A stretch of 64,000 nucleotides of DNA from Dysidea avara (Eukaryota > Porifera > Demospongiae > Dictyoceratida > Dysideidae), in the NCBI RefSeq assembly GCF_963678975.1, contig NC_089281.1, forward strand, positions 2,775,926 to 2,839,925, in the 5' to 3' direction. Below are positions 10,773 through 64,000 of the stretch, in pieces (the first letter of the stretch is position 1; each line of letters opens with the position of its first letter). A program made the translations under genes and the position numbers. Under the pieces are notes generated by a model, which worked only from the letters and a program-made list of their open reading frames with translations, had not been told where the DNA came from and searched no databases.

Positions 10773-11711
10773 TCACTGTACATACAGTGTTAACTGATCC
10801 ACTAAGATAGCTTCATCACCAAAAACTTCATTAGTACAAATCCTCACTTCCACATCATCCATAGTAGCCATATCCAACTCCCTATAGAACCATGGTAGGT
10901 TGGGGTTATCACAACAAGTGTTACCAGTAGGACAGTCTAAACCATCCCACAAAGGATCAGACAAGTAATGTGTAGCATGATTAGGACGACCACCAGAATT
11001 CACTCCACTTTCACAGTAAAAATTGGAGCCAGTAAAAGCATCTGCAGCTGAGTTGCAATTACAATATGTGTCAATGGTACGAACTTCATATGTCCATATG
11101 TGTTGACGAGGGCTACCATGTGTTATAAATAATGCATCATTGTTGTAGATCCCATCAATGTATCCTTTCTGATAACCTCTAGCCATTCCACAAATTTTTT
11201 GGTAACTTATTCCTTTAGAGGAGAATAGTACAGGATAACATCCAGCATTGTCACTTGGTGATCTACAGAAACTGATGCCATCTTGTGATCTCTTGTTCCA
11301 TCCAGTTGGACATTCATCTCCTCTGGTAATGTTAACACTAGCAATTCTAGTCCATCCACCAATATTACCACATACTACTCGTTGCTCCATATCACAGTAT
11401 ATACGACGTAAAGGATTAATGAGTAAATAATATCCTGACCTGTTATGAGTTTGTGGGTTGAGGTCATAGATCTCCTTACAAGAGTCATAAGAAGAAGCTT
11501 GTATTCCATGTTCCATATCACAGTATACACGACGTAAAGGATTAATAAGCCAATAATATCCTGACCAGTTGTGAGTTTGTGGGTTCCAGTCGTAGATCTC
11601 CTCACAAGACTCTCCAGGTAGGAAAGGATGACTAAACTGATAAGTATCACATTGTTCAGTAGCTGTTACTAACTTGCTAGTACAATACAATATTATTACT
11701 AGTGCTAACAT
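10773..11711 (-). CDS. Secreted two-module cysteine-rich protein (invertebrate lectin-like family)
   Basis: A single uninterrupted frame of 312 codons starts at the ATG at 11711, just after a hydrophobic signal peptide-like start (MLALVIILYCTSKLVTA). Residues about 36-67 and 78-109 are two copies of a short module (C-x2-IYD-x-NPQTHN-x-SGYY ... VYCDME). This resembles the opening of fibrinogen-type and collagen C-terminal type domains. From about residue 114 a longer domain follows: GGWTRIASVNI, a GC-x-PVLFSSKGISYQKICG block, ITHGSPRQHIWTYEV, FYCESG, PLWDGLDCP, CCDNPNLPWFYREL and DDVEVRIC. This domain recurs in uncharacterised secreted proteins of sponges and cnidarians. The many cysteines and the leader indicate an extracellular, disulphide-bonded protein; ligand and role are unknown. 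Five other copies or pieces lie on the same strand in this window. Confidence 0.85.
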   Translation of the reverse strand: MLALVIILYCTSKLVTATEQCDTYQFSHPFLPGESCEEIYDWNPQTHNWSGYYWLINPLRRVYCDMEHGIQASSYDSCKEIYDLNPQTHNRSGYYLLINPLRRIYCDMEQRVVCGNIGGWTRIASVNITRGDECPTGWNKRSQDGISFCRSPSDNAGCYPVLFSSKGISYQKICGMARGYQKGYIDGIYNNDALFITHGSPRQHIWTYEVRTIDTYCNCNSAADAFTGSNFYCESGVNSGGRPNHATHYLSDPLWDGLDCPTGNTCCDNPNLPWFYRELDMATMDDVEVRICTNEVFGDEAILVDQLTLYVQ

Positions 11712-11769
11712 TCTGTCATCAAGGTCAGACTAAGTACTGTGAACTGTTTCTGTATGTCTTTGGATCATG

Positions 11770-15968: not shown

Positions 15969-16767
15969 TCACTGTATGTACAGTGTTAACTAATCCACTA
16001 AGATAGCTTCATCTTCACTAGTACAAATCCTCACTTCCACGTAGCTATATCCAACTCCCTATAGAACCATGGTAGGTTGGGGTTATCACAGCAAGTGTTA
16101 CCAGTAGGACAGTCTAAACCATCCCACAAAGGATTGGACAAGTAATGTGTAGCATGATTAGGACGACCACCAGAATTCACTCCACTTTCACAGTAAAAAT
16201 TGGAGCCAGTAAAAGCATCTGCAGCTGAGTCGCAATTACAATACAGTATGTGTCAATGGTACGAACTTCATGTGTCCATATGTGTTGATGAGGGCTACCA
16301 TGTGTTATAAATAATGCATCATTGTTGTAGCTCCCATCAATGTATCCTTTCTGATAACCTCTAGCCATTCCACAAACTTTTTGGTAACTTATTCCTTTAG
16401 AGGAGAATAGTATGGGATAACATCCAGCATTGTCACTTGGTGATCTACAGAAACTGATTCCATCTTGTGACCTCTTGTTCCATCCAGTTGGACATTCATC
16501 TTCTCTGGTAATGTTAACGCTAGCAATTCTAGTCCATCCACCAATTTTACTACATACTACTCGTTGCTTCATATCACAGTATACATGACGTAAAGGATTA
16601 ATAAACCAATAATATCCTGACCAGCTGTGAGTTTGTGGGTTCCAGTCATAGATCACCTCACAAGACTCTCCGGGATAGAAAGGATGACTAAACTGATAAG
16701 TATCACATTGTTCAGTAGCTGTTACTAACTTGCTAGTACAATACAATAGTATTACTAGTGTTAACAT
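15969..16767 (-). pseudogene. Secreted-protein gene copy, one module, frameshifted
   Basis: The ATG at 16767 and a signal peptide as in the 10.8 kb gene are followed by a single 40-residue-type module (residues about 36-67) and then the GGWTRIASVNI domain. The frame is open for about 170 codons of matching sequence. A 5-bp insertion (ACAGT near 16243-16247) then shifts it. Further losses near 16035 remove the VEVRIC region. The C-terminal codons remain readable down to a stop-equivalent at 15969. The copy would encode a truncated protein ending in an unrelated tail. Confidence 0.85.
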
Positions 16768-16825
16768 TCTGTCATCAAGGTCAGACTAAAGTACTGTGAA
16801 CTGTTTCTGCATGTCCTTTATCATG

Positions 16826-26014: not shown

Positions 26015-27187
26015 TCACTGTATGTACAATACTAACTGATCCACTAAGATAGCTTCATTGCCAAAATTTTCATTAGTACAAATCCTGACTTCCACATCAT
26101 CCATAGTAGCCAAATCCAACTCCCTATAGAACCATGGTAGGTTGGGGTTATCACAACAAGTGTTACCAGTAGGACAGTCTAAACCATCCCACAAAGGATC
26201 GGACAAGTAATGTGTAGCATGATTAGGATGACCACCAGAATTCACTCCACTTTCACAGTAAAAATTGGAGCCAGTAAACTCATCTGCAGCTGAGTCACAA
26301 TTGCAATATGTGTCAATGGTACGAACTTCATATGTCCATATGTGTTGACGAGGGCTACCATGTGTTATAGATAATGCATCATTGTTGGAGTACCCATCAA
26401 GTATTCCTTTCTGATAACCTCTAGCCATTCCACACACTTTCTGGTAACTTATTCCTTTAGAGGAAAATAGTATGGGATAACATCCAGCATTGTCACTTGG
26501 TGATCTACAGAAACTGATGCCATCTCTTGAGCTCTTGGTCCACCCAGTTGGACATTCATCTCCTCTGGTAATGTTAACACTAGCAATTCTAGTCCATCCA
26601 CCAATATTACCACATACTACTCGTTGCTCCATATCACAGTATACACGACGTAAAGGATTAATAAGCCAATAATATCCTGACCTGTTGTGAGTTTGTGGGT
26701 TGAGGTCATAGATCTCCTTACAAGAGTTATAAGCTTGTACTCCATGTTCCATATCACAGTATACACGACGTAAAGGATTAATAAGCCAATAATATCCTGA
26801 CCTGTTGTGAGTTTGTGGGTTGAGGTCATAGATCTCCTTACAAGAGTTATAAGCTTGTATTCCATGTTCCATATCACAGTATACACGACGTAAAGGATTA
26901 ATAAGCCAATAATATCCTGACCTGTTGTGAGTTTGTGGGTTGAGGTCATAGATCTCCTTACAAGAGTTATAAGCTTGTATTCCATGTTCCATATCACAGT
27001 ATACACGTCGTAAAGGATTAATAAGCCAATAATATCCTGACCAGTTGTGAGTTTGTGGGTTCCAGTCATAGATCACCTCACAAGACTCTCCAGGATAGAA
27101 AGGATGACTAAACTGATAAGTATCACATTGTTCAGTAGCTGTTACTAACTTGCTAGTACAATACAATATTATTACTAGTGCTAACAT
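26015..27187 (-). CDS. Secreted four-module cysteine-rich protein (invertebrate lectin-like family)
   Basis: An uninterrupted 390-codon frame starts at the ATG at 27187 with the signal-peptide-like start MLALVIILYCTSKLVTA. Four consecutive 40-residue modules (starting near residues 36, 76, 116 and 156) each read SC-x2-IYD-x-NPQTHN-x-SGYYW ... VYCDME. The shared C-terminal domain follows from about residue 194: GGWTRIASVNI, ITHGSPRQHIWTYEV, FYCESG, PLWDGLDCP, NLPWFYREL, DDVEVRIC and a C-terminal VLYIQ. It differs from the 10.8-kb gene mainly by two extra modules encoded by exact 120-bp tandem repeats. Predicted to be extracellular and disulphide-rich; binding partner unknown. The single-exon frame and a TATA box 59 bp upstream suggest it is expressible. 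Confidence 0.87.
   Translation of the reverse strand: MLALVIILYCTSKLVTATEQCDTYQFSHPFYPGESCEVIYDWNPQTHNWSGYYWLINPLRRVYCDMEHGIQAYNSCKEIYDLNPQTHNRSGYYWLINPLRRVYCDMEHGIQAYNSCKEIYDLNPQTHNRSGYYWLINPLRRVYCDMEHGVQAYNSCKEIYDLNPQTHNRSGYYWLINPLRRVYCDMEQRVVCGNIGGWTRIASVNITRGDECPTGWTKSSRDGISFCRSPSDNAGCYPILFSSKGISYQKVCGMARGYQKGILDGYSNNDALSITHGSPRQHIWTYEVRTIDTYCNCDSAADEFTGSNFYCESGVNSGGHPNHATHYLSDPLWDGLDCPTGNTCCDNPNLPWFYRELDLATMDDVEVRICTNENFGNEAILVDQLVLYIQ
26641..27000. repeat. Three 120-bp tandem repeats within the secreted-protein gene
   Basis: 26641-26760, 26761-26880 and 26881-27000 are identical apart from a single base, and 27001-27100 is a diverged fourth unit. Each unit encodes one 40-residue module in frame, so unit gain or loss leaves the gene open. 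Confidence 0.95.
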
Positions 27188-27245
27188 TCTGTCATCAAGG
27201 TCAGACTAAAGCACTGCAAACTGTTTCTGCATGTCCTTGATCATG

Positions 27246-43076: not shown

Positions 43077-44006
43077 TCACTGTATGTGCAATACTAACTG
43101 ATCCACTAAGATACCTTCATCACCAAAATCTTCATCAGTACAAATACTCACTTCCACATCATCCATAGTAGCCATATCCAACTCCCTATAGAACCATGGT
43201 AGGTTGGGGTTATCACAACAAGTGTTACCAGTAGGACAGTCTAAACCATCCCACAAAGGATCAGACAAGTAATGTGTAGCAAACCTAGGACCACCAGAGT
43301 TCACTCCACTTTCACAGTAAAAATTGGAGCCAGTAAACTCATCTGCAGCTGAGTCGCAATCACAACGTGTGTCAGTGGCATCAACTACATATGTCCATAT
43401 GTGTTGACGAGGGCTACCATGTGTTATAAACAATGCATCATTGTCGACGGTCCCATCAATGAATCCTTTCTGGTAACCTCTAGCCATTCCACATACTTGC
43501 TGGTAACTTATTCCCTTAGAGGAGAATAGTACAGGATAACATCCAGCAGTATTATTTGGTGATCTACAGAAACTGATGCCATCTTGTGAGCTCTTGTTCC
43601 ATCCAGTTGGACAATCATCTCCTCTGGTAATGTTAACACTAGCAATTCTAGTCCATCCACCAATATTACCACATACTACTCGTTGCTCCATATCACAGTA
43701 TACATTACGAGGAGGATTTGTAAGCCAATAATATCTTGACTTATTATGAGTTTGGCTATCAGTATCATAAATTTATTTACAAGAACCAACATCTGGTCGT
43801 TGTTCCATATCACAGTATACATCCTGTAAAGGATTAACAAGCCAATAATATCCTGACCTATTGTGAGTTTGTGGGTTTTGGTCATAGATCTCCTCACAAG
43901 ACTCTCCAGGATAGAAAGGATGACTAAACTGAACAGTATTACACTGTTCAGTATCACTGAGCTCAGCTGTTACTAATGTACAGCACAGCAACATTAACGT
44001 AATCAT
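43077..44006 (-). pseudogene. Secreted-protein gene copy, two modules, single nonsense codon
   Basis: The true ATG is at 44004-44006 (MITLMLLCCTLVTA signal peptide). Module 1 (SCEEIYDQNPQTHNRSGYYW) is intact and ends YCDMEQRPDVGSCK. The next codon is TAA, where every other module has GAA or GAG (SCKEIYD). Beyond that codon the frame stays open through IYDTDSQTHNKSRYYW, YCDMEQRVVC and the complete C-terminal domain to a normal stop at 43077. One G-to-T change therefore separates this copy from a full-length protein of about 310 residues. The C-terminal domain has diverged more than in the other copies (VDATDTRCDC, VSICTDEDFGDEG). It could be a pseudogene, a polymorphic null, a read-through stop or an assembly error. 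Confidence 0.85.
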
Positions 44007-47939: not shown

Positions 47940-47980
47940 TACGTGTAGGTCGTCTATTATCTATCGTACGACGTACAACA

Positions 47981-48405
47981 ATGTTAGTGAGAAAACTGTC
48001 TAAAGCGTTAGCATCAATTAGGAGAATACCTCGTAATCGTCAAATAAGACATCATAGTAACCAGACGACATGTTTTCCTTCGCGCACTTTGGTAGAGTTA
48101 CGACACCGCGGACTAGTCGAATTAGAGGGAGAAGACACGTTCAAGTACGTAAGAAACATTTTTGTACTTACTGAGCAAGCTAAACCTGATTTTACAGGTT
48201 ATTGCAGGGGCTAACAACGAATGATATTGACGAGTTATCACCAGACAAACCAGTTCAATACAGCATGTTACTAAACCTGAAGGGAAGAGTGTTATACGAC
48301 TTGTTGATATACCGCCATAAGGAGCTGGGGTGTATGTTAGAGTGTGACAGTGAATCAACCAGTGGGGTTATCAAACATCTCAGGAAATACATGCTACGAT
48401 CAAAG
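47981..48405 (+). CDS. IBA57: IBA57-like mitochondrial protein, exons 1-2 (partial copy 1)
   Basis: Exon 1 (47981-48148) starts MLVRKLSKALASIRRIPRNR, a basic mitochondrial-targeting-type leader, then LVELRHRGLVELEGEDTFKY. After a 59-nt intron (TAC|GTAAGA ... TTGCAG|GGG), exon 2 (48208-48405) gives GLTTNDIDELSPDKP, MLNLKGRVLYDLLIYRHKE and LECDSESTSGVIKHLRKYML RSK, with a donor at 48406. This is the N-terminal part of the folate-binding GcvT-like fold of IBA57/CAF17. That protein helps mature 4Fe-4S proteins in the mitochondrial matrix. The acceptor could be a few bases upstream, since most relatives have LQGL. The later exons, including the conserved Cys motif region, are not found downstream, so the copy looks truncated unless they lie far away. 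Confidence 0.68.
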
Positions 48406-50400
48406 GTTATTATATTCTAATAGTACATTCATTGTATGATGCACTACAACTAGCCAGCTACGGTCAGCAACACTTGCTATAAGTTGATCTGTGACCTTCA
48501 AGTAAACGGTCAAGGCTATTAATAAACAGTTCCAGTCAAGAATAAAACCATACTTACAGTATTTGAAAAGATTTTGTTTGCAATAAGTCAGTTAGGAGAA
48601 AATAAATTAAATAGTTTCAGATAGGCTTATGGTTTCTGGTCACTAGCCATATATTTCAGGAATAGATTAGTAGGTCAGATTTAAAAAAAACTATATTGCT
48701 AACAAAAATTATACTGCACTGTCTGCAGAGATGTCAAATGTCTTTCGGTTACAAGCCACAAACTATTAATGGATATGAGCTTAGTTGCTATTCATTGAGC
48801 TATACATGGCATTTAAGTTTTGGTGTATTAGATTTTGTAGCCAGGGGTGTGGCGGCACTGGTTTTAAGGAATCTATGCCTACAGCCGGATTGCGTTACCT
48901 TTTGAGATAAAATTTTACTCATTGACTACTCTTAATTGATTGTTTTACAACAATTACAACGTAATTTGTATACTGTTAAACAAGTGTATATTATGATTAA
49001 AGTTTTCTCCGGACTTACCAAAGCAATTCCAACTGCTTGTTCTGACTAAATTAGATTGTGTAGTCACTTACTGATAATCTGATGGCTGAAATAAGTGATT
49101 TGTGTCCATGAGATGAACACTCTTAGCAAGACAACTAAAAATTTTGGTTGGACAATGCTTGCAAGAAAGATATAGCAGTCAATCTGTCTAATAAAACAGT
49201 CACTTTTAGTTTTCTGTATGTAGCAACGTACTTAGTTTGTTTCATCTAAAATACTATTTCAGAGCTTCTAAAATGTCCTGGGGATTCAAGCCCCCAGACA
49301 TCCACGAATAGTATCCATGTCTGTTGTATGCTTCAAACTCCACTGTGTAAATTTCATTATCACTTGTGGCTAAAGTCTCGAGCACTAAATATCACTTAAC
49401 TTTGTCTCATGCTCTATTAGTTTGGTGATTAGCTATTCATGTTATACTCTCCACAAGTGGTTATGACACTTGTAGTGACCTTACACGTACGTATAGTGAA
49501 AGTTCACTTGAAATTTTTTAATATTGGTGAGTGGGAGATTGTTTTAAGGGAAGGCAGGAGGGGATTGTAGGTGGCAAGGGTGGCATGTATTCCTTCTGCA
49601 GAATAGTATGTATATGAGCCTAATGTTTTGTAATGAAAAGTGTACGGAGCCTCTTTGAGCACTGATACCTCCTGATTGATGAAATACAATGAATACTGCA
49701 TGGTAAGCCCCACTGAAAAGAGTAGAATTTTTTGATTTGGGAAACCTAAAAGTCACATGAGATGTACAATGAAGAAAACAAGATTGAAGCAAACAAGATT
49801 GTTTACATTGCAGTAAAATGTAACTTATAAATTTGAACAGCCTTCTTGCTTGAAAGCATGGGTGGATGTACATGAACTGTATGAATTTCCCGGTTCATGG
49901 TAAACACAATAAGTCAACTCCATAGCCTGTTACACTTGTGACTTTAAATAAGTAGCTGTGATTTATTTTTAGTATAGTCACTGTACAAATTGCTCTATTG
50001 CTATAACTCCAAGAGTATTGTTCACCAGATAAGGCTGAAACTTTAACAGCCCATTAGTTGTTTCCTCTAGACGACAAAGAAGCCATGAAAGAAGCTTGAG
50101 AAAAATGTGAACTATAATAGTTGGGTCCCATGAAGGAAATGCGACTATAGTTTGGGTCACAAATGTTGTTTCGTTCTGAATAGAATTTCTAGGAACATTA
50201 CTGGTAGTTTAGTAAGTTCTGACAAGTTAATTGTCATGTTTACTAGTTGTTTGTCTCTTCAGGTAACAGCTAAAGATGTTTCCAATGAATATTCAGTTAT
50301 AGAGTTATAGCAGGTCATTCTTCTCTACTTGAAGATAATGGGCAAAGCGTCTTGGTTGGGAACCAAGACCCTCGCGTGAAGTGTGTTGTTATGCATTTTC
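48406..50400. other. Duplicated non-coding DNA downstream of the IBA57-like exons
   Basis: 48406-48960 matches 59020-59570 and 48960-49677 matches 63300-64000. 49268-49300 contains a G/C-run hairpin (CCTGGGGATTCAAGCCCCCAG). 49677-50400 has no recognised gene. Confidence 0.6.
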
Positions 50401-52910: not shown

Positions 52911-53536
52911 TCACTGTATGTAAAGTGTTAACTGATCCACAAAGATAGCTTCATTGCCAAAACTTTCATCAGTACAAATCCTCACTTCCACATCATCCAT
53001 ATAGTAGCCATATCCAACTCCCTATAGAACCATGGTAGGTTGGGGTTATCACAACAAGTGTTACCAGTAGGACAGTCAAGACCATCCCACAAAGGATCGG
53101 ACAAGTAATAGGTATTGATATCAGTAGAAGCTGGTCCATTATTGCCAGATTCACAATAAAAATTTGAGCCAGTAAAAGCATCTGCAGGTGAGTTGCAATT
53201 ACAGCTTGGATCTTGATGTGCAACTTCATATGTCCAAATGTGTTGATGAGGACTACCATGTGTAATAGATAATCCATCATTGAAGGACTGGATGATACCA
53301 TCGGGTGTTCCTTTCTGATAACCTCTAGCCATTCCACAAACTTTTTGGTAACTTATTCCTTTAGAGGAGAATAGTATGGGATAACATCCAGCATTGTCAC
53401 TTGGTGATCTACAAAAACTGATGTCATCTTGCGAGCTCTTGTTCCATCCAGTTGGACATTCATCTCCTCTGGTAATGTTAACACTAGCAATTCTAGTCCA
53501 TCCACCAATATTACCACATACTACTCGTTGCTCCAT
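52911..53536 (-). pseudogene. Secreted-protein gene copy, 5' truncated and frameshifted
   Basis: Starts abruptly at MEQRVVCGNIGGWTRI (53536) without signal peptide or modules. It runs through the C-terminal domain (ISFCRSPSDNAGC, ITHGSPHQHIWTYEV, DPLWDGLDCP, NLPWFYREL). A 2-bp insertion (CATATAGTAG for CATAGTAG near 53001) then shifts the frame within DDVEVRIC. The remaining C-terminal codons are readable out of frame to 52911. The truncation point (MEQRVV) is close to that of the 30.6-kb copy, suggesting a shared breakpoint at the module boundary. Confidence 0.85.
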
Positions 53537-53539
53537 ATT

Positions 53540-54320
53540 AGAGTAGAGATTTTCAACTAAATTAAATAATTAACATTCCATGCATTCATTGGTATGACAA
53601 ATATTGTGCTATTTTTCAGGGTCATTTTAGTACAAACCCCACCTCAATTGGTGGTTCCTATCAAAAGATATAAGCAAAAGAAGTTGACAGTGTGATGATT
53701 TTTGTGTGCAGTATTTTCAATGCTTTTTACATACATTGCATGGCACCAAACACAATATTCAAAGTTTCATAAATCTAGATAGGAAACTAATGACATGAAA
53801 TTTTCACCACATAACTATTTTATGGAGAACAGCATATGAGCTAGGTAAAACCTCTCAAGAGTGACCACTTCTTTGTAGACTGACCACTCAAAATAATAAA
53901 TGAATAAAGCAAGTGATTCACAAATAAAACTGTGTGTATTATGTAATACTAAGTATACACAGGTACCCAATGCATTTTCAAGGATAACTAACTAGAAAAA
54001 TCAGTAATATTACATAACATGGTAAGTAATGGCATCAGAAATCACAATTAACAAATACTTTGGAAACATGACAATCAGATAACAAAATGTAAGAGAAATA
54101 TTATTATTGTTTGGACACTGTTCAGCTTTATTTGTCACATTGTAAGCACTAAGGATGATAATTATTATATAACACAATGACATCACTGTACTACAAAGAG
54201 AAATTATAAATAGTTTCTGACCAAAATTACAATCACTGAAGCTGCTATAAAATAGATCAAAACAGCAGTAAATACACTGGAATATAACATCAGGTAAGTG
54301 TGGAACCATGTAAGGCTGGT
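53540..54320. other. Non-coding or weakly coding stretch
   Basis: A minus-strand frame (54010-54300) has hydrophobic segments (SLCSTVMSLCYIIIIILSAY) but runs straight into the hAT MITE and shows no recognised domain, so it is not called a gene. Confidence 0.35.
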
Positions 54321-58495: not shown

Positions 58496-58600
58496 TATAT
58501 TTCAGATTTTAGCTTTGATTTCAGCTAATTCCATTTTTTTTAAATGAATTACGTGTGGAGCGGGTCACATCTCCGGTCACATCTCGGGTCACATACAACG

Positions 58601-59019
58601 ATGTTAGTGAGAAAACTGTCTAAAGCGTTAGCATCAACTAGGAGAATACCTCGTAATCGTCAAATAAGGTATCACAGTAACCAGACGGCATGTTTTCCTT
58701 CGCGCACTTTGGTAGAGTTACGACACCGCGGACTAGTAGAATTAGAGGGAGAAGACACGTTCAAGTACGTAAGAGAAAACGTTCTTGTACTTACTGAACC
58801 CTGATTTACAGGTTATTGCAGGGGCTAACAACGAATGATATTGATGAGTTATCACCAGATAAACCAGTTCAATACAACATGTTACTAAACCTGAAGGGAA
58901 GAGTGTTATACGACTTGTTGATATACCGCCATAAGGGGCTGGGGTGTATGTTAGAGTGTGACAGTGAATCAACCAGTGGAGTTATCAAACATCTCAGGAA
59001 ATACATGCTACGATCAAAG
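58601..59019 (+). CDS. IBA57: IBA57-like mitochondrial protein, exons 1-2 (partial copy 2)
   Basis: Exon 1 58601-58768 and exon 2 58822-59019, with the same boundaries as copy 1 and a 53-nt intron. The protein differs from copy 1 at only a few positions (ASTRR for ASIRR, IRYHSNQTACF for IRHHSNQTTCF, QYNML for QYSML, RHKGLG for RHKELG), nearly all single-base changes. Splice sites are unchanged and no stop has arisen in either copy, although both appear to lack the 3' exons. Role as for copy 1 if expressed as part of a complete gene. The 5' flanks differ: copy 2 has three GGTCACATCT-like repeats just before the ATG. Confidence 0.68.
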
Positions 59020-60026
59020 GTTGTTCTAATAGTGCATTCACTGTATGATGCACCACAATCAGCCAATTATCTCAAGGTGGGGTGACACAGAGACACTTGC
59101 TGTAAGTTGATCTGTGATCTTCAAGTAAATGGTCAAGGCTATTAAACAGTTTCAGTCAAGAATAAAACCATACTTACAGCATTTGAAAAGATTTTGTTTG
59201 CAACAAATCGGTAGAGGGAAAATAAAAATAAAAAACAGTTTCAGATATACTTATGGTTTCTGGTCACTAGCCATACATTTCAGGAATAGATCAGTAGGTC
59301 AGATTAAAAAAAAATTATACTGCACTGTCTGCAGTGATGTCAAATGTCTTTCGGTTACAAACCACAAAGCTATTAATGGATATGGGCCTAGTTGCTATCC
59401 AACGAGCTATAGATGGCATTCAAGTTTTGGTGTATCATAGATTTTGTAGCCAGGGGTGAGAGGGGCACTGGTTTTAAGGGATCTATGCTACGGATTACAT
59501 TACCTTTTGAGATAAAATTTTACCCACTGACTGTACTCTCGATCATTTTGCAATTACAAATTAATTTATAGGTGTCGTTGTTCTTATTTTTTCTATTCAT
59601 AATTAAAATCTGTATGAAACTGGGTCGGTTGGGTCCGAGCAACAACTTTTCAAATAGGTATGGCCTAAAGTGGCTAAGAGTTTATGCAACTACAAGTTTG
59701 AATGACTGTCTTGCAGTGTTTTTATTGGTGTTTTCTGCAGTTGGCTTATATTATGACATTATTGTATAGAGTGTTAGATGTGTATATTGCAATAGCAGGA
59801 AACAAATAAGAACACTGGCCAATTGTTCAAGATCAAACACTGTGGAAAATAAATTGTCAATTTTCCCATTGACCGTGGTCACAGATCTGTCTACCTATTG
59901 TGTGTGCCTATGTGAAGATAACCTCTGTAGGTTAAGTTAGTAGGTAAACTAAGTGTGAGACTTAACTTGTGGCTAATAGCATTTCTTTTCCCAATGCTAA
60001 TAATAAACATTTCAGCCATATAATTA
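59020..60026. other. Non-coding: duplicated DNA, then copy 2-specific DNA
   Basis: 59020-59570 corresponds to 48406-48955. 59572-60026 has no counterpart in copy 1. The plus-strand frame 59572-59769 is hydrophobic but unrecognised and not credited. Confidence 0.5.
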
Positions 60027-60160
60027 CCATATAGCGGGTTTTATCTGCGAGGTCCTAATTTGTGCGAATCATGCGAGAAGCTACAGGCTTGCAGAATTTA
60101 ATTCTACAGCCGCTTATGCTTTTGTTTTTATTAAGTCAGTGAAATCTCCATGTGTTGCAG

Positions 60161-61615
60161 TGTGAACTGTTGACCTATGTCTCTTTCAAGTACTTCAAAA
60201 GAGTGGACATTTCAGCCTCGCTGCCTGATCCGAAAGGTCCTTTGTCAGATCACTTACCTACAGCGTCAATTGCAGAAGCAAACAGAGAGGTTTTGAAAGC
60301 AGTAGCTGAAGCTAAGGAGCCGCGAAATAAGGGCCCATACATAAAAGTCACTCCAGAATGCAAAGCACAGGTTGCCAAGTTTGCTTCTATTAATGGAAAT
60401 AGCGTCGCTGCCAGGAAGTACACTAAAATTTTAGGCAAGAAGTTGAACGAGAGCACTGTTCGTTTATGGGTAAAGAATTACAAGCTCGAATTAGAGCGCA
60501 AGAGAAAGGCTGGTGATATTGAGCCAGACGTGCAAGTTCTGCCAACAGTGAAAAGAGGGCGTCCATTTTTACTTGGAGAGAAGCTGGATGGGCAAACTCA
60601 AGCGTACATACGAGCTGTTTGTGAGGCTGGTGGTGTGATTACAACAGGCATAACAATTGCAGCTGGTAAGGCTATTGTCCGTAAGTTTAACCCGACTTTA
60701 TTTGATGAAATGAATGGCCCTGCTTTAGAGTTGACGCCTAACTGGGCTAAATTGCTTTTATACAGAATGGGTTTTGCCAAACGAAAAGGGTGCTCTACCA
60801 AGAAGCTAATGGTTCATAATTTTGAGGAGATAAAAGAGCAATTTCTCAACGATATTGTTACTGTGGCCAATATAGAGGATATCCCAGATGATTTGATACT
60901 GAATTGGGACCACACAGCTATAAACATTGTGCCTGTGTCTTCATGGACGATGAACCAGAAAGGAGAAAAGCGAGTTGAAATAGTTGGCTTGGATGATAAA
61001 CGGCAGATCACTGCTGTCCTTTGTGGAGCACTAAGTGGTGAGATTTTGCCATTTCAATTAATCTACCAAGGGAAAACGTCTGCATGCTTGCCTAAAGTAA
61101 AGCTTCCTAAAGATTGGCTACTGAGCTTCACACCAAACCATTGGTCCAATGAAGACAAAACTGAGGAGTATATTCATTCAGTACTCTTACCTTACTTGGA
61201 GAAGAAAAGAGCAGAATTAGGGCTTTCTAACACTTTTCCGGCTGTTGTGTTGTTTGATGCATTTAAAGGTCAGACAACCGAAAGAATTTATCAATTGCTA
61301 GAAGCTAACAATGTGTACACAATAAGTGTACCAGCAAACTGTACCGATAAGCTTCAGCCAATGGACTTAAGCGTCAACAAAACTCTGAAAGATTTCATGA
61401 AGAAGGAATTTAATGAATGGTATTCCTCGGTAGTGTACGAGACACTTGATGCAGAAAATCCAATACCAGCTGATTTACGAATGGCAGTGATGAAACTTGG
61501 TGCTCGATGGCTATTAAAGGCTTACAGACATTTAATGGTCAACAAAGAAATCATCCAGAATGGATTCAAGGCTGCAGGAATAGCAGATGCCCTGAAGGAA
61601 CAGCGATCACTGTAG
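60161..61615 (+). CDS. DDE_1-family transposase (pogo/Tigger/Jerky-like)
   Basis: An open frame of about 485 codons ends at 61615. No ATG occurs before residue 187 (counting from 60152), and TTGCAG precedes TGTGAACTG at 60161. The start is therefore probably spliced from an upstream exon not located here. Residues about 84-113 resemble a helix-turn-helix (NSVAARKYTK ... STVRLWVKNY). KRGRP at 134-138 is an AT-hook-like motif. The catalytic core has the three acidic residues: D253 in NWDHTAINI, D369 in VVLFDAFKGQTT and D405 in DKLQPMDLSVNK, the last two 35 residues apart. Typical flanking motifs FQLIYQGKT and TPNHWSNEDKT are intact. The enzyme would cut and rejoin the element's DNA ends in the nucleus. 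All motifs are undamaged, so the copy may be recently active. Confidence 0.9.
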   Translation, partial: CELLTYVSFKYFKRVDISASLPDPKGPLSDHLPTASIAEANREVLKAVAEAKEPRNKGPYIKVTPECKAQVAKFASINGNSVAARKYTKILGKKLNESTVRLWVKNYKLELERKRKAGDIEPDVQVLPTVKRGRPFLLGEKLDGQTQAYIRAVCEAGGVITTGITIAAGKAIVRKFNPTLFDEMNGPALELTPNWAKLLLYRMGFAKRKGCSTKKLMVHNFEEIKEQFLNDIVTVANIEDIPDDLILNWDHTAINIVPVSSWTMNQKGEKRVEIVGLDDKRQITAVLCGALSGEILPFQLIYQGKTSACLPKVKLPKDWLLSFTPNHWSNEDKTEEYIHSVLLPYLEKKRAELGLSNTFPAVVLFDAFKGQTTERIYQLLEANNVYTISVPANCTDKLQPMDLSVNKTLKDFMKKEFNEWYSSVVYETLDAENPIPADLRMAVMKLGARWLLKAYRHLMVNKEIIQNGFKAAGIADALKEQRSL

Positions 61616-61755
61616 TAGCAACTGTCAAGAATTTGTGTAACAATTGTGTTAATTGCATTAAAATAATCATTTGATTAGTGAAGTTGTACAGCTAAATCAC
61701 AATATTTTATGGTATATACATTAAATCACATTCTAGTATCAGTTGTATATGTAGT

Positions 61756-63078
61756 TCACTTCTGAGGCTTGACCCGGCGAGATGGGAAGGGTGACATTTT
61801 TCCTTGACTCAAGCAGTTGATTAAATGTGACCTCATCTGTGATTGGTGAAAGTAAGCCTTTTCTGGATTACGTTTCTTTGTCAAATATACTGCATATGCA
61901 ATTGCAAATAGTCCACAGTCACTGAAACCTTGTTGTTTCTGTACTGGTACTACATGAACCTCCTTAACACCAAAAAGCTGCTGTATGATCTTCAGGCTTT
62001 TTTCATCTACAGAATCGTAGAGGGAATCATAGATGCTTACTGCATTAGGTTTTGACAATATTGTGCTGGCAGTTATCCAATGATTACCCCTGACATAGAC
62101 AATTTGCAGCTCATTAACTCGGGGAGTTGAACTTGCCTGCAGTAAAGTGGATTGCAAACCTTTAATCGAAAACTGGCACTTTAGTATGGTTTGGGCGTAG
62201 TTAATGTGTTTGTCATTTAGTTGAAAACCACCAGCAATTTCATCTCTGTCTGAAAGAGTAAGAGACACTCTTCCAAATTTCACCCATGTTGAACTGGAGA
62301 CTAGTACAGATGCACTGCTTTGATGCTTCACGGAATCTTTGCTACCATTAGTACTTTCAACTGGATCTAGTAAAACCATAGATAAATAGGCCTCAGCATC
62401 ATATTTCTGACTCTCTTTTGAGGTAGAATTTCTCCTGTCAGCAACGTCTGAGGGCTCATCTTGACATGGTGGTTCACATTCTAACACTTTCATACTTGTC
62501 GTGGGATCAGTGATGTCTCTTATAGATTCCTGGGTCATGTCTTCTCCTTGTGTGTCTGGTAGAGTGTATTTTACTTCCACAGTAAACTTTGCACCCTCAG
62601 GTTGCTCTGTATTACTACTAGAGCTACTGCTCACATCATTGCCACCAGTACCAGCACCACAGATAACTGGCACAGACACAGAAAGCAGCACTGGCCTTTT
62701 CATATCAACTAGTATAGACTTTGCTTTATTCACCATCACCTTACAACCAGCAAACTTCATTACCCATGGAATCTCCATGCCACCTTGTGGCAAGTCATGA
62801 GAGTACCGCCTCGAACCTGTAACTGTGCCAGTTATCGTTGCTCCTGTCTTCCCCAGAAAAACGTAACAAACTGCAGAAATTTTCCTAGGCACGTGTCCCG
62901 CTACAGTGGTCCCCTTACATACCGCAACAGCAAAAGGATCGTGGTGGTTTCGAACATCACGGCGACAGTACAGCACTTCTCCTATAAAACTGGACCAAAT
63001 ATCCTTGTAAACGTGATATCCTCTAATCGTAGAATCTATCGCAAAGGATTCTATTTCAGATACGAGCTCAGACGCCAT
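61756..63078 (-). CDS. HIRAN-like plus Ulp1/C48-type cysteine protease protein, transposon-borne
   Basis: 440 codons from the ATG at 63078 to the stop at 61756. Residues about 20-110 (GYHVYKDIWSSFIGEVLYCR, DPFAVAVCKGTTVAGHVPRK, GTVTGSRRYSHDLPQGG) look like a HIRAN-type DNA-end-binding fold. The middle (about 135-260) is Ser/Glu/Thr-rich linker. Residues about 270-430 resemble Ulp1-like (C48) proteases, with candidate catalytic His333 (RGNHW), Asp351 or 355 (YDSLYDS), Gln380 (PVQKQQG) and Cys388 (DCGLFAIAYAVYL). C48 enzymes cleave SUMO or related modifiers; whether this one does is unknown. It lies tail to tail with the transposase, 140 bp apart, inside the same inverted ends. The frame is intact, suggesting selection or recent arrival. 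Confidence 0.8.
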   Translation of the reverse strand: MASELVSEIESFAIDSTIRGYHVYKDIWSSFIGEVLYCRRDVRNHHDPFAVAVCKGTTVAGHVPRKISAVCYVFLGKTGATITGTVTGSRRYSHDLPQGGMEIPWVMKFAGCKVMVNKAKSILVDMKRPVLLSVSVPVICGAGTGGNDVSSSSSSNTEQPEGAKFTVEVKYTLPDTQGEDMTQESIRDITDPTTSMKVLECEPPCQDEPSDVADRRNSTSKESQKYDAEAYLSMVLLDPVESTNGSKDSVKHQSSASVLVSSSTWVKFGRVSLTLSDRDEIAGGFQLNDKHINYAQTILKCQFSIKGLQSTLLQASSTPRVNELQIVYVRGNHWITASTILSKPNAVSIYDSLYDSVDEKSLKIIQQLFGVKEVHVVPVQKQQGFSDCGLFAIAYAVYLTKKRNPEKAYFHQSQMRSHLINCLSQGKMSPFPSRRVKPQK

Positions 63079-63244
63079 TGCACGTGTAGCATACCACGAT
63101 TTTAATCAAGACCACGTGTTTTGATGATTGGAAGGGTTCGCAGATATTATAATCGCAGATATTACTGCTGGACGAAAAGCTTGCTTCTTCGCAGAAATTG
63201 CGCCTTGCACATTATACCCGCTATACGGCATGTGTTATCGATGA

Positions 63245-63289
63245 CATCAAGAGTTAATAGAGGGAGGGCTCTATTATTAACTCTTGATG
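63245..63289. repeat. Hairpin next to the transposon end
   Basis: CATCAAGAGTTAATAGAG and CTCTATTATTAACTCTTGAT pair around a GGAGGG loop with one 3-nt bulge. Lies between the transposon's right end and the point where duplication homology resumes (about 63297). Confidence 0.75.
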
Positions 63290-63296
63290 ACTTATG

Positions 63297-64000
63297 TATA
63301 CAATTAAACAGGTGTATATTATGATAAAGTTTTTCTCCGGACTTACCAAATCAATTCCAACTACTTGTTCTGCTAAATTAGATTGTGTAGTCACTTACAG
63401 CAGATGGCTGAAATAAGTGATTTGTGTCCATGAGATGAACACTCTTATCAAGACAAATAGAAATTTTTATTGAACAATAATAGCAGTCAATTTATCCAAT
63501 AAAACAAACAGTCACTTTTAGTTTTCTGTAAGTACGTAGCTATGTACTTAGTTTATTTCATCTAAAATACTATTTCAGAGCTTCTAAAATGTCCTGGGGG
63601 TTCAAGCCCCCAGACATCCATGAATAATATACATGTCTGTTGTATGCTTGAAATTCCACTGTGTAAATTTCATTATCACTTGTGGCCAAAGCCTCAAGCA
63701 CTAAATATCACTTTGGTCATTAGGCATCACCCATATTAGGCATCACCCATATTCATGTTATATCCACCAGTGGTTATGGCACTTGTAGTGGCCTTACATG
63801 TATACTCTATCATTAGTAAAAGTTCACTTGAAATTTTTTTATATTGGTGACCGGGAGATTGTTTTAAGGGAAGGCAGGAGGGGATTGTAGGTGGCAAGAG
63901 TGGCATGTATTCCTTCTGCAGAATAGTATGCATATGAGCCTAGTAATGTTTTGTAATGAAAAGTGTACGGAGCCTCTTTGAGCACTGATACCTCCTGATT
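63297..64000. other. Duplicated non-coding DNA (matches 48960-49677)
   Basis: Follows copy 1 closely, including the CCTGGGGGTTCAAGCCCCCAG hairpin at 63593 and GGCAGGAGGGGATTGTAGGT at 63873. No gene. Confidence 0.7.

Follow-up and report, generated by a model that had tools for sequence, protein, structure and literature searches.

A 64,000-nucleotide stretch of the genome of the sponge Dysidea avara (NC_089281.1, positions 2,775,926 to 2,839,925, assembly GCF_963678975.1; this whole stretch is referred to below as the window) contains a DNA transposon in which a transposase gene lies tail to tail with a second gene, predicted to encode a HIRAN domain joined to a C48 cysteine protease domain. 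The locus raises the question of whether the second gene is part of the element or host cargo captured by chance, and of what its product might do for a transposon. We found a large lineage of elements in this genome in which each untruncated locus that was read has both the transposase gene and, convergent to it, a HIRAN-C48 gene. The two genes recur together in many diverged families, so that the second looks like an established component of the element, one that may help it to move or survive. The window copy is made up as follows.

60027..63228, whole element, 3202 bp: two convergent genes inside inverted ends, delimited by further full copies that end at the same bases
60143..61615, plus strand, transposase gene: 490 codons and a stop; DDE_1 type, DD35D (D256, D372, D408)
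61756..63078, minus strand, HIRAN-C48 gene: 440 amino acids in a single uninterrupted frame

The genome (550.8 Mb in 108 contigs) was searched with the HIRAN-C48 protein, 96 of 1607 candidates being scored, which gave at least 163 matches (150 of them listed) at identities down to 35%, many of them in open frames of 360–500 codons. The diverged loci that we read comprised 10 from this search, less than 60% identical to the window protein and taken with 1.5-kb flanks, and a further 12 chosen from the list. In 22/22 of these loci the HIRAN-C48 gene has next to it, in convergent orientation, a transposase like that of the window; the loci represent about 14 sequence groups by our own grouping and so are not 22 independent cases. 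At locus L046 the partner became visible only after extension (L054), a distance of about 1.5 kb separating the two genes there and part of the transposase being rearranged. Both genes are open in six of the 22 (L042, L052, L055, L057, L058 and L065), the transposases of L042 and L052 only as far as the available DNA extends.

The pairing was also examined from the side of the transposase. A genome search with this protein, in which 87 of 1454 candidates were scored, produced at least 92 matches, distributed over 87 loci, and at least 43 of the 87 loci have a listed convergent HIRAN-C48 partner 91–763 bp away, compared with a chance expectation of 0.011 pairs. This count drew on the 150 listed of the 163 HIRAN-C48 matches and on all 92 transposase matches; since each search scored part of its candidates, 43/87, like 43/89, is a lower bound. 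Among the 44 transposase loci without a listed pair, only one had a listed HIRAN-C48 match within 6 kb; it proved to be half of an interrupted copy, with its HIRAN-C48 partner about 5 kb on. Four transposase loci without a listed partner (L067-L070) were sampled by a six-frame search, and a convergent HIRAN-C48 gene is present in each (best profile E value 1e-60 or better). Inverted repeats lie outside both genes in 12 of 13 loci, in each case beating all of 100 shuffles; in the thirteenth locus, L064, one flank is just 134 bp long. The ends of the diverged families read TACCGTA in 20 of 24 cases and are one base off in the other four, with the subsequent bases varying by family, and the elements are 2.9–3.6 kb long. 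Many HIRAN-C48 'genes' of this genome are transposon genes. The first-pass annotation, made from the window alone, had assigned the protease gene to the element, and the repeated, co-inherited gene pair upholds that assignment; an ordinary single-copy host gene is excluded because copies lie on many contigs.

Judged by its substitutions, the HIRAN-C48 gene, like the transposase gene, is under purifying selection between families, an outcome for which the first-pass annotation had proposed a check between copies. The proportion of nonsynonymous differences (pN) was lower than that of synonymous differences (pS) in 199 of 201 HIRAN-C48 pairs and in all 77 transposase pairs; the two HIRAN-C48 pairs without pN < pS are near-identical (L052-L048 and L055-L064). 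Synonymous sites are mostly saturated between families, and the proteins stay alike. Among the most informative pairs, the ratio of nonsynonymous to synonymous substitution rates (dN/dS) was 0.15–0.16 for the protease part (L048 and L052 versus L044) and 0.18 for the HIRAN part (L056 versus L062). Other pairs gave values of 0.28–0.62, and the window family a value of 0.50 (window versus L026, which is the same place as L006); pairs sharing fewer than 100 codons were excluded. The distances of the two proteins correlate across 11 loci (r 0.84, with 0/5000 permutations as high in a Mantel test), and therefore the genes travel together. This test used 11 of the 13 loci of the transposase alignment, A2, from which L060 and L063 were dropped as fragments, and in which L052 and L061 represent one family. 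Alignment A1 has 21 rows, fragments included, and leaves out L041, L049 and L066.

The product of the second gene was divided into three parts by domain searches and structure prediction, the confidence of the latter being given by the predicted local distance difference test (pLDDT).

62695..63063, minus strand, HIRAN domain: residues about 6–128; N44, D47, G61 and H62 kept across families
62296..62694, minus strand, inter-domain linker: residues 129–261, of low confidence (pLDDT under 50)
61774..62295, minus strand, C48 protease domain of Ulp1/SENP type: residues about 262–435, with H333, D351, Q382 and C388

When the whole protein was scanned, HIRAN (PF08797) scored 26.2 bits against a cut-off of 24.7, and C48 (PF02902) scored 20.4 bits, 0.3 under its cut-off of 20.7; scanned alone, the two segments scored 28.5 and 24.2 bits, respectively, both over cut-off. 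The domain calls of the first-pass annotation are thus borne out, HIRAN by profile score and fold, and C48 by profile score, the H-D-Q-C residues and fold. The protease residues are kept at H in 18/18, D in 17/18, Q in 16/16 and C in 16/16 rows, and the HIRAN residues N44 and D47 in 17/17, rows gapped at a position being omitted from its count. N44 and D47 are the probable equivalents of N91 and D94 of HLTF. Structure prediction from the family alignment gave a mean pLDDT of 67.9, compared with 32.7 from the single sequence. The predicted structure matches the fold of the HLTF HIRAN-DNA structure and of SENP/Ulp1 proteases, the latter enzymes being the best protease matches. A sequence search of solved structures returned weak matches or none, with SENP1 at E 0.12. 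Searches of viral contigs for HIRAN-C48 and transposase (proteins and patterns), of phage and prokaryote genome collections for the transposase, and of a plasmid collection for HIRAN-C48 gave no match; such records say little about an animal-like element, and these absences carry little weight.

The element itself is almost certainly a copy of a pogo-type DNA transposon, with hallmarks nearest to those of the Passer family. Its ends carry the following features.

60025..60026, left target-site dinucleotide TA; the right counterpart, 63229-63230, is CA in the window copy
60027..60052, plus strand, left terminal inverted repeat, reading CC[A/G]TATAGCGGGT...
60046..60076, plus strand, left subterminal TGCGA motifs, at 60046, 60063 and 60072
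63138..63193, minus strand, right subterminal TGCGA motifs, as TCGCA at 63138, 63153 and 63189, inverted with respect to the left set
63203..63228, minus strand, right terminal inverted repeat

The inverted repeats and the TA target duplication are those of pogo-type elements. The flanking dinucleotides are TA/TA in 5/5 other full copies, directly outside CC[G/A]TATAG, and this fixes the element boundaries at the positions at which the first-pass annotation had placed them. The terminal inverted repeats agree at 21 of 26 bases, compared with a maximum of 18 among 400,000 random 26-mer pairs drawn from the window. With one gap the likeness extends to about 41 bp, and a BLAST alignment of the ends of copy L022 spans 42 columns at 81%, in agreement with the inverted ends of about 42 bp first described. 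A density of at least three TGCGA motifs per 100 bp (100-bp windows, step 10) is found only at the two element ends in the 64 kb, with the motifs pointing inwards, and in 0/40 simulated strands; these motifs are possible candidates for transposase-binding repeats. The longest open frame across 30 simulated windows was 256 codons, and both element genes are far longer. Immediately beyond the right end of the element, at 63245-63289, lies a perfect 15-bp inverted repeat (CATCAAGAGTTAATA).

The window transposase scores 38.8 bits against DDE_1 in Pfam (cut-off 22). DDE_1 is matched by 11 of the 13 aligned transposases, and DD35D is present in all 11 rows of A2 that have both residues. BrkDBD and HTH_Tnp_Tc5 gave weak matches in two of the 13 transposases each (best E values of 0.02 and 0.0068, respectively), and the window copy matched neither. 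A start of the type seen in MALLRYFK, MALMEYFKRR, MTLWNYFK and MSILNYF recurs at the N-termini in A2, and most rows that reach that far have LPDPxGPLS or a close variant after them. Both long frames of the window had been described as intact, and this holds in part: the HIRAN-C48 frame is uninterrupted and the transposase frame is open, but the start of the latter is probably broken. Compared with the other full copies, the window copy lacks one base just past the ATG at 60177, and this one-base difference puts out of frame an ATG whose match is in frame in 5/5 other full copies; no in-frame ATG lies upstream of codon 190. A spliced upstream first exon was considered for the window transposase and rejected, the in-frame ATG being found in all five other copies.

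A search of the genome with the element yielded at least 92 matches (40 of 157 candidates scored). Further copies with the same ends, for which the first-pass annotation had suggested a search, were found: five are full-length, at 94–97% identity, on contigs C3, C6, C8, C2 and C5, three of them on the opposite strand. Two of the six full copies, the window copy and L006, have an uninterrupted HIRAN-C48 frame. The transposase is intact in none, the window copy being without a start and the others with stops or in pieces. The window family is decaying. On contig C2, between 15.76 and 19.55 Mb, there is a cluster of 82–90% identical copies (L009-L015 and L023); in each of these eight, roughly the same segment of the transposase is missing (element positions 442-853), and the match scores of three are equal or nearly so. 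The cluster probably consists of dead copies multiplied by segmental duplication. Another copy, L022 (C6:26203800-26212200), is 98–99% identical and is interrupted by an insert of about 4.4 kb near element position 817-839.

We compared the element with known systems. The present lineage resembles Passer (PMC7386202; PMC9976928) in DD35D, TA flanks and short inverted repeats, and the faint traces of BrkDBD and HTH_Tnp_Tc5 may correspond to the DNA-binding pair described for Passer (PMC7386202); the hallmarks were also compared against PMC7325037. The likeness is one of hallmarks and not of a tree, and DD35D is not decisive for Passer, being common to Fot and Fot-like elements (PMC7386202). Passer, which moves in human cells (PMC9976928), is described as having a single open reading frame (PMC9976928), whereas the untruncated loci here have two genes. 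Ulp1- and OTU-type proteases occur in several kinds of eukaryotic transposon (PMC2836005). In most Ginger1 elements the transposase comes with a cysteine-protease domain, either Ulp1 (C48) or OTU (PMC2836005), but in those elements the protease forms the C-terminal part of an integrase-like transposase; in the present element it is encoded by a separate convergent gene and fused to HIRAN, beside a DDE_1 transposase. The window transposase is not of the Gypsy-integrase-like kind found in Ginger1: in Pfam it matches DDE_1 and none of the integrase families. Mutator-like elements likewise include members with a Ulp1 domain (as cited in PMC2836005), and belong to another transposase superfamily; HIRAN is not mentioned for Mutator or Ginger1 in the portions of text available from that source (PMC2836005). 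HLTF, of the HLTF/Rad5 type, joins HIRAN to an SNF2 motor and a RING domain, and here HIRAN is joined instead to a SUMO-type protease. Host SENPs, the SENP/Ulp1 SUMO proteases of the cell, are not element genes, and we know of none with a HIRAN domain. No published HIRAN-Ulp1 gene was found in any transposon among the papers listed, mostly by the openings of their abstracts, so that the absence is weak evidence; PMC12062965 has no bearing on the matter.

From the sequence we infer, as the first-pass annotation had suggested, a role for the second protein in repair or SUMO signalling. The mechanism that we favor, at slightly better than even chances, is that this protein docks on the 3' ends made during transposition and deSUMOylates proteins there. 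The transposase would bind the terminal inverted repeats and subterminal repeats, excise the element and insert it at TA. Through its HIRAN domain the second protein would attach to exposed 3' ends of DNA, either where the donor site has been cut or in the strand-transfer complex, and the SENP-like protease would then strip proteins at that site of SUMO or, with lower probability, of a related modifier. Candidate substrates are the transposase itself, end-bound repair factors and repressive chromatin proteins, and the result would be faster disassembly of the post-cleavage complex, steered repair and a higher yield of the element. The HIRAN domain of HLTF binds 3'-OH single-stranded DNA ends, and HLTF needs it to clear Cas9 from a cut (PMC11237066); an N90/N91 mutant has been used to break this domain (PMC11237066, PMC4666394). 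In 2010 the SUMO-protease or deubiquitinase of Ginger1 was proposed to act in repair, either in the course of transposition or following it (PMC2836005), and the HIRAN fusion would supply a physical anchor for that proposal.

Several observations weigh against this reading. All of the evidence comes from one genome, and of the 44 transposase loci for which no partner was listed, five were examined. In a recount of all 70 loci (48 places by our count), both genes were present at 42. Same-ended copies lacking the protease had been named beforehand as grounds for refutation, and one was seen: L013 (C2:19062000-19065200) has the ends and pieces of the transposase without HIRAN-C48, its transposase is broken, and it is a deletion derivative. 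L020 (C2:16506000-16507900), a further deletion derivative, is a stub that retains its right end plus a short further segment, and neither gene. L008 (C2:54158748-54160079) and L021 (C2:54004500-54006800), both of the window family, have HIRAN-C48 without the transposase; both begin at element position 1875 and are probably one truncated copy that was later duplicated. L017 is a HIRAN-C48 fragment and L019 a transposase fragment. All six exceptions are truncated or deleted copies. As for the protein, the fold matches of the C48 domain include NEDD8 and ubiquitin proteases as well (2bkq, 8rqi and 6upu), and some HIRAN-C48 members match in Pfam fold relatives of other activity (ElaD/SseL-like in 4/21, YopJ acetyltransferase in 3/21). 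Unlike HLTF, the protein is without a motor domain. SUMO-interacting motifs are not enriched in the linker, being found in five of the 14 linkers (of 21) that the test took in, compared with a shuffle mean of 2.7 and with 203 of 2000 shuffles as high. Several linkers look suggestive of such motifs by eye; the counted test was not significant, and this impression was not used.

The strongest rival to end-guided deSUMOylation, which we consider unlikely, is that the protein strips SUMO from host repressors in heterochromatin or in silencing by PIWI-interacting RNAs, with HIRAN as a chromatin tether, and so protects the expression of the element and not its transposition. SUMO takes part in transposon silencing, and a selected paired gene with kept protease residues and a SENP-like fold is in keeping with such a role; anti-silencing alone, however, leaves unexplained why the protein has a domain that, in relatives of solved structure, binds free 3' ends. 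Clearly less probable is that HIRAN directs the protein to stalled or reversed replication forks, where deSUMOylation would time transposition to S phase or to sister-chromatid repair and thereby gain copies. The HIRAN domain of HLTF works in fork remodelling (PMC4666394) and the fold match extends to it, but the sequence points to forks no more than to cut ends. We give still less credence to a protease that matures or cleaves a protein of the element, such as the transposase, instead of removing a modifier, since the best fold matches are SENP/Ulp1 enzymes. Chance capture of a host HIRAN-C48 gene with no function for the element, for which one could cite the capture of host sequence by elements with terminal inverted repeats (PMC8277862) and the decay that has left this gene uninterrupted in so few window-family copies, is scarcely credible and is already contradicted by the same tail-to-tail pair in the 22 diverged and four more loci, by like ends (13 loci tested), by purifying selection and by the correlated distances.

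Elsewhere in the window, related repeated genes lie at 10773-11729, 16177-16785, 26015-27205, 43077-43772 and 52982-53569 (-). They encode a Cys-rich, perhaps secreted protein, and their DNA copies align at about 80–94% identity; one copy was scanned and matched no Pfam family. The region around the element is a duplicated stretch, in which 47971-49677 corresponds to 58591-59570 plus 63295-64000, the second copy being split by the element and by 456 and 66 further bases. A clean empty site near 48967-48970, where the paralogue is continuous, was considered and rejected: the gap exceeds the element by 456 + 66 bp, which suggests an older insertion around the transposon.

As a broader conclusion, put forward tentatively and at somewhat less than even chances, this pogo-type lineage would depend on a self-encoded, 3'-end-guided SUMO protease acting on the transposition complex or on repair factors. 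If true, cut-and-paste transposition in this lineage would require the protein as an obligate cofactor, of a kind not described in the literature found. For annotators, the results carry the warning that many HIRAN-C48 'genes' in this genome belong to transposons. The fusion of protease and HIRAN, kept across diverged families beside a pogo/Passer-like transposase, makes the old repair-factor proposal directly testable.

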